Assembly: GCA_946405435.1 (NCBI GenBank)
Contig: CAMJHF010000011.1
Coordinates: 32,703 to 96,702, forward strand
Length of the DNA stretch: 64,000 bases
Source of the DNA: an uncultured Bacteroidales bacterium
GTDB lineage: Bacteria > Bacteroidota > Bacteroidia > Bacteroidales > UBA932
Reading direction: 5' to 3'
The position numbers and the translations under genes are program-made. Positions 18,790 through 32,576 of the stretch are shown one piece after another. The first letter of the stretch is position 1. The number at the start of each line of letters is the position of its first letter. A model generated the notes under the pieces. The model worked only from the letters and a program-made list of their open reading frames with translations. It did no database searches and was not told the DNA's origin.

Positions 18790-20043
18790 ATGAAATCGTT
18801 ATTTTCTTCGATAACCCTGGCCGCAATTGCAGCCTCTCTCTTATTGATATCCTGCTCATCACCCATTAACAGCATCGACGATCCGCATTTCGATGAGAAC
18901 GGTGTCTATCTTGACAGCCTTGGTGCAACCTTCCAGGCTGTGATGCCGACTTCTATTGACTTCTATGTCGAGGTAAGTGGTAGCATGAATGGTTTCTTCC
19001 GAGCCAATAAAGCAACCGCATTTAAGACTGATGTTTGGGCGATTGTTTCCAATTTCGGCAGCCCTGGTGTCTCTGTGTTGTCAAATACCGGCACTCAGGC
19101 AACGAAATATACGGGAGACCAATTCCGCAGCAGGATGAATTCAGGTGGCTTTGTATCTACAGCTGAGACCCAGGTGCCTGCTATGTTGGAGAGCATCCTG
19201 TCGAAACTTGATTACGAGAACGGAGCAGTCGCAGTCTTGATTTCTGACATGAAGTATAGCCCTGTTGGTAATAAAGCTCTTCCGGTTCTTCTCCAGCAGT
19301 ATGCTACCGATATCAGGAATATCGTCGGCAAGTATCCAGGCTCTGCATATAGCCTTGTAGGAGCTTATTCTGAATTTCTAGATGCAAAAGGTAACGTCGC
19401 ATGCGAAAAGTCTCCATATTACTATCTCATCGTCGGTAAGGATGTTTGCGTAGCCGAGGTTCGCAATTGCATTACTACTATTCTCTCTGACCGTGATAAT
19501 TATCTGGACAATATCGAGACTGGTTTTGACTATAAGCGGCCGGCTTATGGATTTGGAGTTCCTGATAATGTAATCCAACTTGATAAGGAACCAACTTTCT
19601 ACAATTACGATGTCTCCTTTTCCGACACCTGCAAAGTGGTGCTGAATCTTGACCTCTCTGACTACCGTTGGCTGATTGCAAGCGATGAAGATGTCCTAAG
19701 GGAATGTCTCAAGGTTAAGGCAGCCTACGGTTCCGAGATTGAGATCGGAAAAATCGTCATCGACATTAATAACCACAATCAGAAGAAACTTGAGAGATTT
19801 GCCGTCGCTTCAGTTGAACTGAAACTTTGGAATATGCCGATGGATGCCGACGTTATTGAGTGGACTTTGGATCATCCGGAGTATTCCGTTACCGATACTT
19901 TTATGCAGATTCAGAACGCTGCTGCTGAAGCAGACCTAACCGGTTCCTTCTCACTGGCCAATTTTATTCAGGGTGTTTTCCAGGCCGTTCAGAACCACTG
20001 GAACCAGGAGCCTAACCGAATCTTGATTTCAAAAAGCAACTAA
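18790..20043 (+). CDS. vWA-like lipoprotein (first gene of the ZorAB-like/cytoskeletal operon)
   Basis: Lipobox LLLISCSS; degenerate MIDAS DFYVEVSGSMNGF and AVAVLISDMKYS. Confidence 0.65.
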   Translation: MKSLFSSITLAAIAASLLLISCSSPINSIDDPHFDENGVYLDSLGATFQAVMPTSIDFYVEVSGSMNGFFRANKATAFKTDVWAIVSNFGSPGVSVLSNTGTQATKYTGDQFRSRMNSGGFVSTAETQVPAMLESILSKLDYENGAVAVLISDMKYSPVGNKALPVLLQQYATDIRNIVGKYPGSAYSLVGAYSEFLDAKGNVACEKSPYYYLIVGKDVCVAEVRNCITTILSDRDNYLDNIETGFDYKRPAYGFGVPDNVIQLDKEPTFYNYDVSFSDTCKVVLNLDLSDYRWLIASDEDVLRECLKVKAAYGSEIEIGKIVIDINNHNQKKLERFAVASVELKLWNMPMDADVIEWTLDHPEYSVTDTFMQIQNAAAEADLTGSFSLANFIQGVFQAVQNHWNQEPNRILISKSN

Positions 20044-20046
20044 CAT

Positions 20047-20502
20047 ATGAAGATTGTTGACATTTACGGATGGGGGCTTCCCAAGCAGGCGGATTTCCTC
20101 AACCACTTCAAAAGCAACGACACGCTGTACAATCAAGCTCGTGCCTTGTGGAGTAAGCTCGACTCTTGCACAGTTTGGTTTATCGTCGCATTCGTAGTTA
20201 TTGCACTGGTCTTCGCCCTCATCTACTACGGGCCCTATAACAATAAGCCTCGTCGTCACTACAAAGTGAAGCATTGGCTTATCTGGATGCTCATTACTGC
20301 TGTCGTTACCTTTGTGATTACTTCGGTAATGGGGCTGATTATGGTTAAGTCTCCTCTTTCTGCAAGAATTGGCTTGATTCTCCGTGTCAGCGGAATCAAT
20401 GTCCTCTATAGCATTGGAGTATATTTCATCGCTGCACTTCTGGTCTGCAATATGCCGTTCCTGAAGACTAACGCATATAGGTTCCTTAAAATCGGCAAGT
20501 AG
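20047..20502 (+). CDS. Integral membrane protein (about 3 TM)
   Basis: Hydrophobic segments TVWFIVAFVVIALVFALIYYG, LIWMLITAVVTFVITSVMGLIM, VLYSIGVYFIAALLVC; 3-nt gap to next gene. Confidence 0.7.
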   Translation: MKIVDIYGWGLPKQADFLNHFKSNDTLYNQARALWSKLDSCTVWFIVAFVVIALVFALIYYGPYNNKPRRHYKVKHWLIWMLITAVVTFVITSVMGLIMVKSPLSARIGLILRVSGINVLYSIGVYFIAALLVCNMPFLKTNAYRFLKIGK

Positions 20503-20504
20503 TT

Positions 20505-21902
20505 ATGGCAAATAAAGTATTCGTTTTCTGCATTGGCGGAACCGGTCTCCGGGTAATGAAAGCCATCACGATGCTCGCTGCATCTGGCGTAAAGACGAAT
20601 GGATATTCCATCGTTCCTATTATCATCGATCCTCATATCGACCTTGAAGAGAAGACCAAGGTTGACAATCTTATCAACGACTATATCAGCATCTACAAGT
20701 ATGCGACGACAAGCGAAGGGCAGCAAATGAATCCGCTTGACGGGTTCTTTAACACTCAGTTCCAGCGCCTCGCAGAGATTGATGATGAGCAGAACAACAC
20801 TAGCGCCAGCATGGCGGAACGCCGCACGTTCGGTGAATACATGAATGTCGGCAATCTCAGCAATGATGACGTTAACAATTTTCTCGTGCAGACCCTTTTC
20901 TCGAAAGAGAATCTCACAAACAGCCTGTCCGTGGGTTTCAAGGGCAACCCTAATATCGGAACCGTAGTCCTGAACGAGATGGTTAATGGCGCTGACTGGT
21001 ACAGTGCTTTCACTCGTCATTGTGAGAGCGGAGACCGTGTCTTCATCATCAGCTCAATATTCGGTGGTACCGGAGCATCCGGCTACCCTCTCATCGAAAA
21101 GAAGATTCGCGATGCAGAAGGGTTCCCGAACGTTCAGCGGGCAATTATGGGGGCCGTGACGGTGCTTCCTTATTTCTCTCTGGAAGACCCGACGGTTTCC
21201 GGAAGCGACATTGACTCTTCCAGTTTCTTCACGAAGTCTAAATCCGCCCTGAGTTATTATGAGAACACCGTTAAATCGGATTATCTCTATTATGTCGGTG
21301 AGCAAACCCTTCGTGCAAATTATAAGAATAATGAGAAAGAGCAGAAAGACTTGGCCCATTTCGTAGAGTTGGTGGCTGCTACAGCTCTGTTTGACTTCCT
21401 TTCCAAACCGAAACCGGATGCGCCGCAGGCATTGACACGAGCCATCTATGATGACAAGGTCGCCCTTGATTTGGCTTCTCTCGGCGCAGGATATAAAGGA
21501 ATCGTCAAGAATGTTGCTGATATGATGCTGCTTGATCTTCTGGTTAAGATTCTGCCTGAGGAATCTCAGTTCCCTCTGAAGAAAGACCGTAAGATGAACA
21601 AGGATTTCTATCAGGACCATGCGTTCGTCGCTCTTGACCAGTTTACTAAGGGGTTCTACCAGTGGTATAAGGAGTTGTCCGAGAATGCTCGTGGTTTCAC
21701 TCCGTTGAACCTTGTTGGTCCCGGAAAGGAACTGACCAACTGGGTCAAAGGAAATACGCTCAAAGGCAAAGATGAGTCTTACTATCTGCTTGAGATGATT
21801 AAGGCCAGCAACAAAGGTAACGGCGAGAAGCATGACAATATCTTCCGCTATTTCCTGGAGTTTGCATACAGCGCCATCAATGTTTACACCAAAAATCTGT
21901 AG
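20505..21902 (+). CDS. Tubulin/FtsZ-like GTPase family protein
   Basis: N-terminal FCIGGTGLRVMKAITMLAASG and tubulin signature-like SSIFGGTGASGYPLIEKKI. Confidence 0.7.
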   Translation: MANKVFVFCIGGTGLRVMKAITMLAASGVKTNGYSIVPIIIDPHIDLEEKTKVDNLINDYISIYKYATTSEGQQMNPLDGFFNTQFQRLAEIDDEQNNTSASMAERRTFGEYMNVGNLSNDDVNNFLVQTLFSKENLTNSLSVGFKGNPNIGTVVLNEMVNGADWYSAFTRHCESGDRVFIISSIFGGTGASGYPLIEKKIRDAEGFPNVQRAIMGAVTVLPYFSLEDPTVSGSDIDSSSFFTKSKSALSYYENTVKSDYLYYVGEQTLRANYKNNEKEQKDLAHFVELVAATALFDFLSKPKPDAPQALTRAIYDDKVALDLASLGAGYKGIVKNVADMMLLDLLVKILPEESQFPLKKDRKMNKDFYQDHAFVALDQFTKGFYQWYKELSENARGFTPLNLVGPGKELTNWVKGNTLKGKDESYYLLEMIKASNKGNGEKHDNIFRYFLEFAYSAINVYTKNL

Positions 21903-21909
21903 TTGAATT

Positions 21910-30185: not shown

Positions 30186-32576
30186 CTATGAGTCAATTTT
30201 TGACAGTCGTTTTTCCCATTCCTCTATGATAGCGAATGGATTATAGAGTTCAAAGACGCCGTTAAAATATGAAATTTTCTTGCCTTCACTTATCCGTTGA
30301 GCAAGGAAGGCTTGTGCTCCATATTTATCGGCAAGCTGTTCTACATACTTGCGTCTACTTTCCTTTAAAGCCTTGAAATGTTCGATGCTTGCAATAAGGA
30401 CTTCCTTCTCCGCAATTCTTAGATGGGCCTTTGAGTATATCTTGATTAAGCGGTCAAACGGAGCAGGCATATAATACTTCTCAAACAGCAGCTGTTCATA
30501 ATTATAACAAGCTTTTTCCATTTCTCCCTCAGATTCGAACTTCTCAGCGGCATCCAGCACGCTGCGGAAGTGTTGTTGAATCTTGTAGACCGGTTCCAAA
30601 CTCCGTTTAAATGACAAAAAATCATTTTGTACTCGTTCGCCAGTTGATGATTGATAGAAATCAAACTCGGGGACCCTGTTTCTTATTACAGATTCAAATA
30701 CATCACCAAGAACTTCTCTACCTTCAAACACAACACGGGTAGTTGGGTATTTCGTCTCGGGTTGTGTTCCTGTCAGTTTCTCAAGGTGTTTTTTGTATTC
30801 CAGTTCTTCAGGGAATTTCACCACAGCCAACTTGGTAATCCTCAACTCGTTTTCCTTATCGTGTTTCTTGCTGTACAGAACCATCAACCGTTTATAGGCA
30901 TGGTGTGCAGGATATCCAATCTTGACATTTTGTTCATAGGTTTCTATGGCTTCATCAATCTTGCCTTCCTTTTCCTGTCGAATACCAAGGTTGTTGAGGT
31001 ATGTTGTCTGGCCAAGATCTTCTATCGGTAAGGACCTCTTAGGCTGGGCATCTGTCACGCTAGGCATATACAGCGCAGCAATGCGGTCTGCGTTCTCAAC
31101 AACTGGCACCCCAGCGTCCTCAACATCCACCTTTTTGGGGGCTACATTAACAGGCTCGATAATGGGCCTTTTCTTCCCTTCTTTCTGGGGAAAAATGCCC
31201 CTGTTTTTGTCGTTCTCTCCAGGTATAGCAAAGGGGAGAATAGTCGAGAGTACACCAGTGGCAGAAGCCTTTATACGGGAAGGAAATTCTCGTAATGCCT
31301 CAAGAGGATCGATGTATTTCATCCCCAGGAGGGAGAAGGCTTCTCTGTCGAAGAATACAGAATACACGTAATCGTCATCAGCCACGCCGTTGGCCTTGTT
31401 GATACGCTGGGTAAAGCCGTTGATTTGGATATAATCAATGGCAGAGTTGACATTGAAAAGACGCCCGGCCACATAGAAAGCCAGTCCGCAGATGCATTTC
31501 ACATAGTCAAGCTGTATCTCCTTCATCGTTTTCTGCTTGAACGATACGTTCCCAGAAGGAAGATATACTGCCTTGTCATTTGGAATCTCCTCTACCTCCG
31601 GTAGATCCATCGACACATATAGGGCACCGTATTGGAAATCAAAGTAGAAGGCCATTCCAGAATCACCGGGCAAGTCCTCATTTAAATTCGCCGACTCCGT
31701 CTTCAATGCGTCCAGAATCACATCTACATCGCGAGAAAGGTAGGCTTCAAGGGGTTTCTTCTCCTCAAGATACTCATGGAAATACTCTGCGTCCTTGAAC
31801 TTCTTTTCCCGAGCCTGCTCCGCGTTAAAATCATCCCTCCTGCTCTCCCATTCCGCGACTTGCTGGTCATATACAACAGGAAGTTTTTCTTCTACATACT
31901 TAGCCCTTTCCGGCTTGTTCTTCCACCAGAAGAAGTGGCGAATCTTCTCTTCAGCTTCTGACTGCAACTGGCGCTCAATCTCATTTTTGTCCGGAGCCTC
32001 TTCCGTAAATGGAAGCGGGGTATAGTGTTTCTGGCTGACACGGCTCAGTGCCATGTTTACTTCAGATTCTGTCTTGAGTGCCGGAGTTTTCTTGAAAAGA
32101 TCCGTAAACGCCTCGGTATCGGCATTGACCTCTTCATAGGTCATCCTTGTTACTTCAGCCAGTTTCTCCTTGTAAATAGGGAGTGACTTGGTCTTGCGGA
32201 TTAAGCGTTGAATAGTTGCATCATCGGTAATGGGATAACCAAGACTGTCAGTAAACGAGAAAGTCAGATTACCTTTACGGTCCATATTCATATCTACACC
32301 AAAGCCTTCGGTATAAGAAGACCGGCTCCTGGATGCAGAGGAACCAGTATCCAATAGTCCTGCGGCGTAAGACGGTTTGGAAGATGAAGATGGTGACCCA
32401 ATCTTTTGGCGACTGTAGATACCGGTCCCGGGGATACCTGTATGCAGGTAGGTTCCCTTGGGACCTACTGTTACTTTAGCACCTTTCGGTCCAATCGAGG
32501 TGCTAATGCCGCTTTTGCTCAGGTTAATGGAAATTCCAGGAGCAATCTTAATCCGTTTTCTGTAAGACCAGGCCAT
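30186..32576 (-). CDS. DUF4236-domain protein with long helical/TPR-like C-terminus
   Basis: N-terminus KRIKIAPGISINLSKSGISTSIGPKGAKVTVGPKGTYLHTGIPGTGIYSR. Confidence 0.82.
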   Translation of the reverse strand: MAWSYRKRIKIAPGISINLSKSGISTSIGPKGAKVTVGPKGTYLHTGIPGTGIYSRQKIGSPSSSSKPSYAAGLLDTGSSASRSRSSYTEGFGVDMNMDRKGNLTFSFTDSLGYPITDDATIQRLIRKTKSLPIYKEKLAEVTRMTYEEVNADTEAFTDLFKKTPALKTESEVNMALSRVSQKHYTPLPFTEEAPDKNEIERQLQSEAEEKIRHFFWWKNKPERAKYVEEKLPVVYDQQVAEWESRRDDFNAEQAREKKFKDAEYFHEYLEEKKPLEAYLSRDVDVILDALKTESANLNEDLPGDSGMAFYFDFQYGALYVSMDLPEVEEIPNDKAVYLPSGNVSFKQKTMKEIQLDYVKCICGLAFYVAGRLFNVNSAIDYIQINGFTQRINKANGVADDDYVYSVFFDREAFSLLGMKYIDPLEALREFPSRIKASATGVLSTILPFAIPGENDKNRGIFPQKEGKKRPIIEPVNVAPKKVDVEDAGVPVVENADRIAALYMPSVTDAQPKRSLPIEDLGQTTYLNNLGIRQEKEGKIDEAIETYEQNVKIGYPAHHAYKRLMVLYSKKHDKENELRITKLAVVKFPEELEYKKHLEKLTGTQPETKYPTTRVVFEGREVLGDVFESVIRNRVPEFDFYQSSTGERVQNDFLSFKRSLEPVYKIQQHFRSVLDAAEKFESEGEMEKACYNYEQLLFEKYYMPAPFDRLIKIYSKAHLRIAEKEVLIASIEHFKALKESRRKYVEQLADKYGAQAFLAQRISEGKKISYFNGVFELYNPFAIIEEWEKRLSKIDS

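Follow-up and report, generated by a model that had tools for sequence, protein, structure and literature searches.

A predicted tubulin–actin pair with a Zorya-type motor and an exchangeable exported hydrolase in a mobile operon of Bacteroidota

The closest described relatives of the locus studied here are the FtsZl1 proteins, which the main text of Makarova and Koonin (2010; PMC2875224) links to vWA and OmpA-family proteins, with a proposed role in membrane remodelling, and most of which, in the same account, carry an extended coiled coil and a helical domain at the C-terminus. A later survey equates FtsZl1 with the Tubulin_2 family and reports a scattered distribution (PMC9871819). The ZorA/ZorB motor is known from the Zorya systems, where it occurs with other partners (PMC11890865, PMC8565338), and tubulins and HSP70s have been placed in GTPase-centred conflict systems (Kaur et al. 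2020, PMC7159879). For an operon uniting a tubulin, an actin-fold protein and ZorAB, for a fusion of the first two, or for a swappable slot behind them, we found no account in the open-licence literature, a body outside which most subscription papers and bioRxiv preprints fall.

A nine-gene operon with a tubulin-like protein in third place

The window, by which we mean the whole stretch of 64,000 nucleotides analysed, comes from an uncultured gut Bacteroidales bacterium. The reading frame that an earlier note had singled out as tubulin/FtsZ-like lies where it was placed, at 20505–21902 on the + strand, with an ATG start and 465 codons for amino acids. Far from being an isolated oddity, it stands third in a tight operon of nine genes on one strand (+, 18790–29063), separated by gaps of a few bases or joined by 4-base overlaps. 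The order is vWA-like lipoprotein, small membrane protein, tubulin, actin-fold ATPase, ZorA/MotA, ZorB/MotB, exported endonuclease, DUF6804 protein and lipoprotein, with the following assignments and their sources:

18790–20043, +, gene A: 417 aa exported lipoprotein, lipobox Cys22, vWA-like (translation, alignment)
20047–20502, +, gene B: 151 aa small membrane protein (translation; 89 homologues in the same position)
20505–21902, +, gene C: 465 aa, predicted tubulin-superfamily protein of the FtsZl1/Tubulin_2 type (Pfam, AlphaFold2 model)
21910–25110, +, gene D: 1066 aa, a ~530-aa N-terminal region followed by a predicted actin/Hsp70-fold ATPase core (AlphaFold2, profiles)
25114–26784, +, gene E: 556 aa ZorA/MotA-like motor subunit with a long coiled-coil cytoplasmic tail (PADLOC, profiles)
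26793–27500, +, gene F: 235 aa ZorB/MotB-like stator with an OmpA-like periplasmic domain (PADLOC, profile alignment)
27497–28276, +, gene G: 259 aa exported lipoprotein, DNA/RNA non-specific endonuclease (PF01223, 5.4e-56)
28273–28587, +, gene H: 104 aa DUF6804 membrane protein, 4-base overlap with G (PF20619, 2.8e-29)
28584–29063, +, gene I: 159 aa lipoprotein, 4-base overlap with H (translation; homologues in loci L042, L083, L091 and L093)
18849–28246, +, extent of the mobile cassette: DNA homology to the copies L039, L040 and L041 in unrelated contexts

The operon sits inside a stretch of ~28 kb of low G+C content (window 12000–40000; 43–46%, compared to 52–56% around it), which is bordered by genes for GTP cyclohydrolase I and for RmuC/DNA polymerase IV, and the flanks of this copy consist of chromosomal housekeeping genes. 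Convergent with the end of the operon is a gene for a voltage-gated-type ion channel (29383–30147, −; PF00520, 4.7e-32) that gives no sign of belonging to it, and beyond this lies a gene (30186–32576, −) for a 796-aa protein whose sole recognised part is an N-terminal DUF4236.

Protein A carries ExSGSM, a variant of the vWA-like MIDAS motif, at residues 61–66 (18970–18987). In the family alignment Cys22, E61, S63 and M66 are kept in at least 90% of the sequences, and S65 and D153 are invariant. A search of the PDB with the sequence of A gave no match, so that the assignment as a vWA-like protein comes from this motif. The C-termini of B in one group of loci (L061–L118) often show a conserved ...SPF or ...VPF tail, possibly a docking motif. 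Some loci have a further exported coiled-coil protein of ~200–450 aa between D and E, here called Z, which is absent from the window's own clade.

The tubulin, the actin-fold protein and the motor

The earlier note had based its suggestion on two glycine-rich stretches of C. In the alignment of 45 homologues their cores, IGGTGxR and FGGTG, are invariant throughout, so that neither is a chance motif:

20526–20555, +, T1-type loop of C, FCIGGTGLRV (residues 8–17): I10–G14 and R16 invariant in 45/45
21051–21083, +, T4-type signature loop of C, SSIFGGTGASG (residues 183–193): S184 and F186–G190 invariant in 45/45

The Tubulin family (PF00091) matches the window protein at 3.5e-5, under the curated Pfam cut-off, and 40 of the 45 homologues with a best value of 3.1e-9. 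The comparison with Tubulin_2 (PF13809) that the note had proposed came out positive for the family, 31 of the 45 homologues being matched (best 3.2e-9), and negative for the window protein itself, which matches PF00091 only; C thus belongs to the already known FtsZl1/Tubulin_2 family through its homologues. An AlphaFold2 model of C built from 10 sequences (pTM 0.80, mean pLDDT 69.6) has tubulin-superfamily structures as all of its top 50 PDB matches, with probabilities of up to 1.00, E-values around 1e-3 and low TM-scores of 0.19–0.33. The predicted fold is therefore that of the tubulin superfamily and not the other type of Rossmann fold that the note had named as its refutation; the C-terminal half is mostly helical in the model, at low confidence. 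The placing of C in the tubulin superfamily is thus supported by the Pfam matches, the invariant loops and the predicted structure, and from the loops we infer that C would bind GTP.

That C is neither a canonical FtsZ nor a TubZ, as the note had also held, agrees with what we found. The genome's true FtsZ is encoded on another contig (C6; E 1.2e-41), and when C was compared with genomic FtsZ profile to profile, the alignment covered no more than the T4 region and lacked significance. The T7 motif NxDxxD, invariant in nine genomic FtsZs, is absent from the corresponding place in C, where the only near-invariant acid is D297, past the helix that follows Q280/E288, and C has no Pfam match to the FtsZ C-terminal domain (FtsZ_C). 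The FtsZ elsewhere in the genome and the missing T7 motif rule out C as the division FtsZ. As regards TubZ, Pfam and NCBIfam point to no DNA-binding adaptor among the operon genes. A phage origin of C was also considered and rejected: tblastn found no phage record and a scan of viral contigs found no relative.

The gene directly downstream of C does encode a protein of the predicted actin/Hsp70 fold, as the note had said. The AlphaFold2 model of D (pLDDT 85, pTM 0.74) gives 609 PDB fold matches at E≤1e-3, the top 50 of which are all of the actin/MreB/ParM/Hsp70 fold (best MreB, 4.3e-9); BeeR, ParM, actin and DnaK are among the matches, and the sequence profile of D finds MreB (2.7e-5). The ~530 N-terminal residues fall into no recognised family. 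The residues expected of an ATPase are conserved as follows:

23503–23544, +, phosphate-1 motif of D, IDLGTSNTY: D535 and G537 invariant in 45/45
24100, +, glutamate E731 of D in the connecting segment, upstream of phosphate-2: invariant in 45/45
24172–24195, +, phosphate-2 motif of D, DIGGGSTD: D755, G757, G758 and D762 invariant in 45/45
24568–24582, +, adenosine motif of D, SGNGS: G888 invariant in 45/45, G890 in 43/45

Since the three motifs and E731 are invariant, D looks like an actin-fold ATPase with its machinery intact. The two proteins are found naturally joined in one family of the same phylum, where a single open reading frame of ~1600–1700 aa (L037:7097–12142, L038:548–5395, and L174–L183) carries a C-type tubulin loop in its N-terminal part and IDFGTS, DLGGGTLD and LRGNG, in this order, in its C-terminal part. 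Both regions are matched by profiles built without L037 and L038. The fusion protein was matched in 8 of 196 genomes of that class, in 4 genera and mostly as single frames without stops, and in L038 its gene is followed by MotA- and MotB-type genes. Such a fusion provides strong, if indirect, evidence that C and D would act as one unit.

Proteins E and F correspond to the subunits of an ion-driven motor. PADLOC identifies E as ZorA (4.6e-8), and its profile matches the ZorA chains 8vvn_C (4.3e-8) and 8vvi_F (1.2e-5); the pore-helix residues T119 and S160 are invariant in the family alignment. F is identified as ZorB (2.2e-8) and its profile aligns over the full length with ZorB (8vvn_B; E 1.1e-12), compared to 2.1e-3 for flagellar MotB. 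Both thus match ZorA and ZorB from the solved structures of Zorya types I and II (PDB IDs: 8VVN; 8VVI; PMC11890865) better than other solved motors. In the alignment with ZorB, F retains the Asp that carries the ion as well as the Arg of LSxxRA, and the His of EGHTD is replaced by Gln; this His contacts peptidoglycan in ZorB, and its replacement counts against a Zorya-like reading. The position of the Asp is:

26838–26840, +, Asp16 of F in FWxSYxDLMT, the ion-carrying Asp position of ZorB/MotB: invariant in the family and aligned with the ZorB Asp

None of ZorC, ZorD, ZorE, ZorF and ZorG was matched by PADLOC in any protein of the operon, and a plain Zorya of types I–III is thereby ruled out.

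An exchangeable hydrolase slot and the spread of the operon

One scan of a genome collection (GTDB) yielded at least 553 confirmed relatives of C, and the loci of 80 of these were taken with flanks of up to 10 kb. The order A-B-C-D-(Z)-E-F-hydrolase is found in most of the 80, across Bacteroidota. The earlier note had called the pairing of a tubulin and an actin in one operon uncommon; this does not hold, as the pairing recurs as a module across the phylum, and the note had also overlooked the other operon genes, among them the ZorA/ZorB motor and the hydrolase slot. A homologue of A is present in 81 of the 84 loci with room upstream, and, among 68 loci with enough downstream sequence, 57 have E and 52 both E and F. 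Spirosoma-type loci keep A to D and often the aspartyl protease, and are missing the motor. A vWA lipoprotein, a tubulin and an actin-fold protein also occur together on cyanobacterial plasmids (Gloeothece verrucosa and Picosynechococcus; L171 and L172), with a small membrane-type open reading frame in the place of B, and no ZorAB was seen in the stretch examined of these plasmid loci. The motor is thus not indispensable to the A–D core, and, as A, C and D keep company on these plasmids, the vWA–tubulin–actin core probably existed before it was combined with the motor in Bacteroidota. Two more distant tubulin–actin pairs (L025, L026) have TerD-like genes downstream of them, as judged by eye, which suggests a link to Ter-type stress systems.

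The slot behind F is occupied by a non-specific endonuclease, a trypsin-like protease, a retropepsin-like aspartyl protease or a transglutaminase-like protein, and no locus has two of these four classes in it. The catalytic residues are conserved within each class, including the GH..P and N..PQ....N.G.W...E of the window nuclease G. A simple pattern finds a lipobox-like N-terminus in 9 of 24 nucleases, 9 of 16 trypsin-like proteins and 11 of 12 aspartyl proteases. On the tree of C at least 9 changes of class are counted, where 3 would be the possible minimum. One locus offers a direct view of module exchange, in that the F-G-H-I end of L042 is 79% identical to the window and the core only 64–67%. 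In a Prevotella-type clade (L043–L060) a DUF4357 protein of ~200–500 aa lies between ZorB and the nuclease; that of L046 has no match in the PDB. A scan of 90 tail proteins showed staphylococcal-nuclease domains in 6.

The distribution is patchy, with C present in 15 of 396 genomes sampled from the phylum and in none of 36 congeners of the host. Three copies (L039, L040, L041) are 78–85% identical to the window at the DNA level over the operon only, with no identity over the fetched flanks of at most 10 kb on each side. Since these close copies share the operon and none of its surroundings, the operon moves as a cassette. The parts list, the gene order, the mobility and the modular end of the operon are all solid observations.

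Possible functions and relation to known systems

What favours a conflict system is the combination of a core that stays constant with unrelated effectors that are swapped, together with patchy spread and transfer as a cassette; given a motor of the Zorya type, defence against phages is the leading guess. We therefore think it somewhat probable that the operon encodes a mobile cell-envelope machine acting as a Zorya-like anti-phage or anti-invader system. E and F would form a ZorAB-type ion-driven motor in the inner membrane, in a 5:2 ratio by analogy and with the OmpA-like domain facing peptidoglycan, which might sense a disturbance of the envelope and turn ion flow into motion of the coiled-coil tail. 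Coupled tubulin C and actin-fold D would replace ZorC/D or ZorE as the cytoplasmic partner, possibly forming an assembly that is driven by NTP and passes on or amplifies the signal. Lipoprotein A and membrane protein B could connect this assembly to the periplasm, and the exchangeable exported hydrolase, here nuclease G, would be the effector there, for instance on incoming DNA. The joint assembly of the parts, their use of GTP and ATP, polymerisation, a phage trigger and the site where the effector acts are all suppositions of this model. More tentatively, and as a possibility short of probable, we put forward that it represents a new class of immune device. Two NTPases of separate cytoskeletal folds, tubulin and actin, fused in some bacteria, would in this case be linked to a rotary motor that is driven by ions and anchored to peptidoglycan, and would bring into action an exchangeable nuclease or protease of the periplasm.

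Exported nucleases and proteases would be unusual effectors and also fit envelope turnover, which speaks against defence. The main rival is a remodelling of the envelope, in housekeeping or under stress and with no part in conflict, in which the motor would power or position filaments of tubulin and actin at the inner membrane and the exported hydrolases would turn over envelope material. Such a role is consistent with the FtsZl1/Tubulin_2 affiliation of C, given the vWA and OmpA-family genes reported with that family (PMC2875224, main text), with the number of components that are exported or membrane proteins (most of them), with the motorless A–D core of cyanobacteria and with the two distant relatives adjoining TerD-like genes. 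We nevertheless consider it rather unlikely, as transfer between unrelated flanks, patchy distribution and the repeated swapping of unrelated hydrolases in one slot, a DNA/RNA nuclease among them, are hallmarks of conflict systems. The genomic neighbours were also compared by PADLOC, using 137 flank proteins and two control sets of 126 and 127: family counts were 49 compared to 5 and 57, distinct proteins being uncounted, and as the third is nearly all due to one UvrD-like helicase on many GajB models, the count is a poor statistic. Among the matches listed, named PADLOC systems look ~2–3 times richer in the flanks than in either control, again with distinct proteins uncounted.

An exported hydrolase of varying class as the last gene would also suit a device for secretion or contact-dependent antagonism, with the motor and the NTPases delivering it into other cells, and the energy for events at the outer membrane could come from the motor, as in the Ton, Tol and type 9 systems (PMC11890865). 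This seems improbable: Pfam and NCBIfam recognise neither an outer-membrane channel nor a matching immunity gene among the operon genes, and the lipobox-like N-terminus of many slot hydrolases would hold them on the cell. Least probable of all, and very much so, is DNA segregation or an alternative division of the TubZ/ParM kind, where tubulins and actins are the classic plasmid-partition polymers and where the related A–D core on cyanobacterial plasmids would find a place; it is opposed by the want of a recognised DNA-binding adaptor noted above, by the chromosomal housekeeping flanks and separate canonical FtsZ of the window copy, and by the remaining operon genes, which encode envelope proteins.

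FtsZl1 tubulins, for which the membrane remodelling of 2010 is, as far as we found, the only role proposed, are given a concrete context here, with a partner of the actin fold, a motor driven by ions and a slot for effectors. The natural tubulin–actin fusions are striking in their own right and offer the cooperation of two NTPases for study in one polypeptide. If the operon is an immune system, defence would make use of cytoskeletal NTPases to relay signals, and nuclease-based immunity would take place in the periplasm; with more than 550 relatives in public genomes the question is directly testable.

Among known systems, FtsZ–FtsA in division and TubZ and ParM in plasmid segregation share tubulin- or actin-fold NTPases with this operon, though gene content and genomic setting are unrelated. 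The FtsZl1 operons, as far as the main text of 2010 describes them (PMC2875224), are alike in the Tubulin_2 membership of most homologues by Pfam, in a vWA-type exported protein (here A), in an OmpA-domain protein (here the MotB/ZorB subunit F) and in a canonical FtsZ elsewhere in the genome; we found no mention in that text of the ~1100-aa downstream protein being an actin-fold ATPase, of the OmpA protein being a ZorAB-type stator or of the last slot holding an exchangeable hydrolase, as identified here, and the present operon showed no gene for a kinase or a P-loop GTPase. The DO-GTPase/GAP1-N2 systems (PMC7159879) resemble ours in predicted NTP-dependent conflict, tubulins, HSP70, vWA proteins and variable effectors. 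However, they centre on TRAFAC GTPases and GAP1, both absent here (no operon protein matches a P-loop GTPase in Pfam or NCBIfam), their tubulins and HSP70s are separate themes from Firmicutes and Actinobacteria, and MotA goes unmentioned. Zorya (types I–III) shares the ZorA/ZorB-type motor with its long ZorA tail, OmpA-like ZorB domain and invariant ion-carrying Asp, as well as interchangeable partners on a common motor; unlike Zorya, this operon has tubulin and actin NTPases and an exported hydrolase in place of cytoplasmic nucleases or helicases, and adds a vWA-like lipoprotein. With conflict systems built of a core and variable effectors in general, it has in common a constant core with unrelated, exchangeable effectors.
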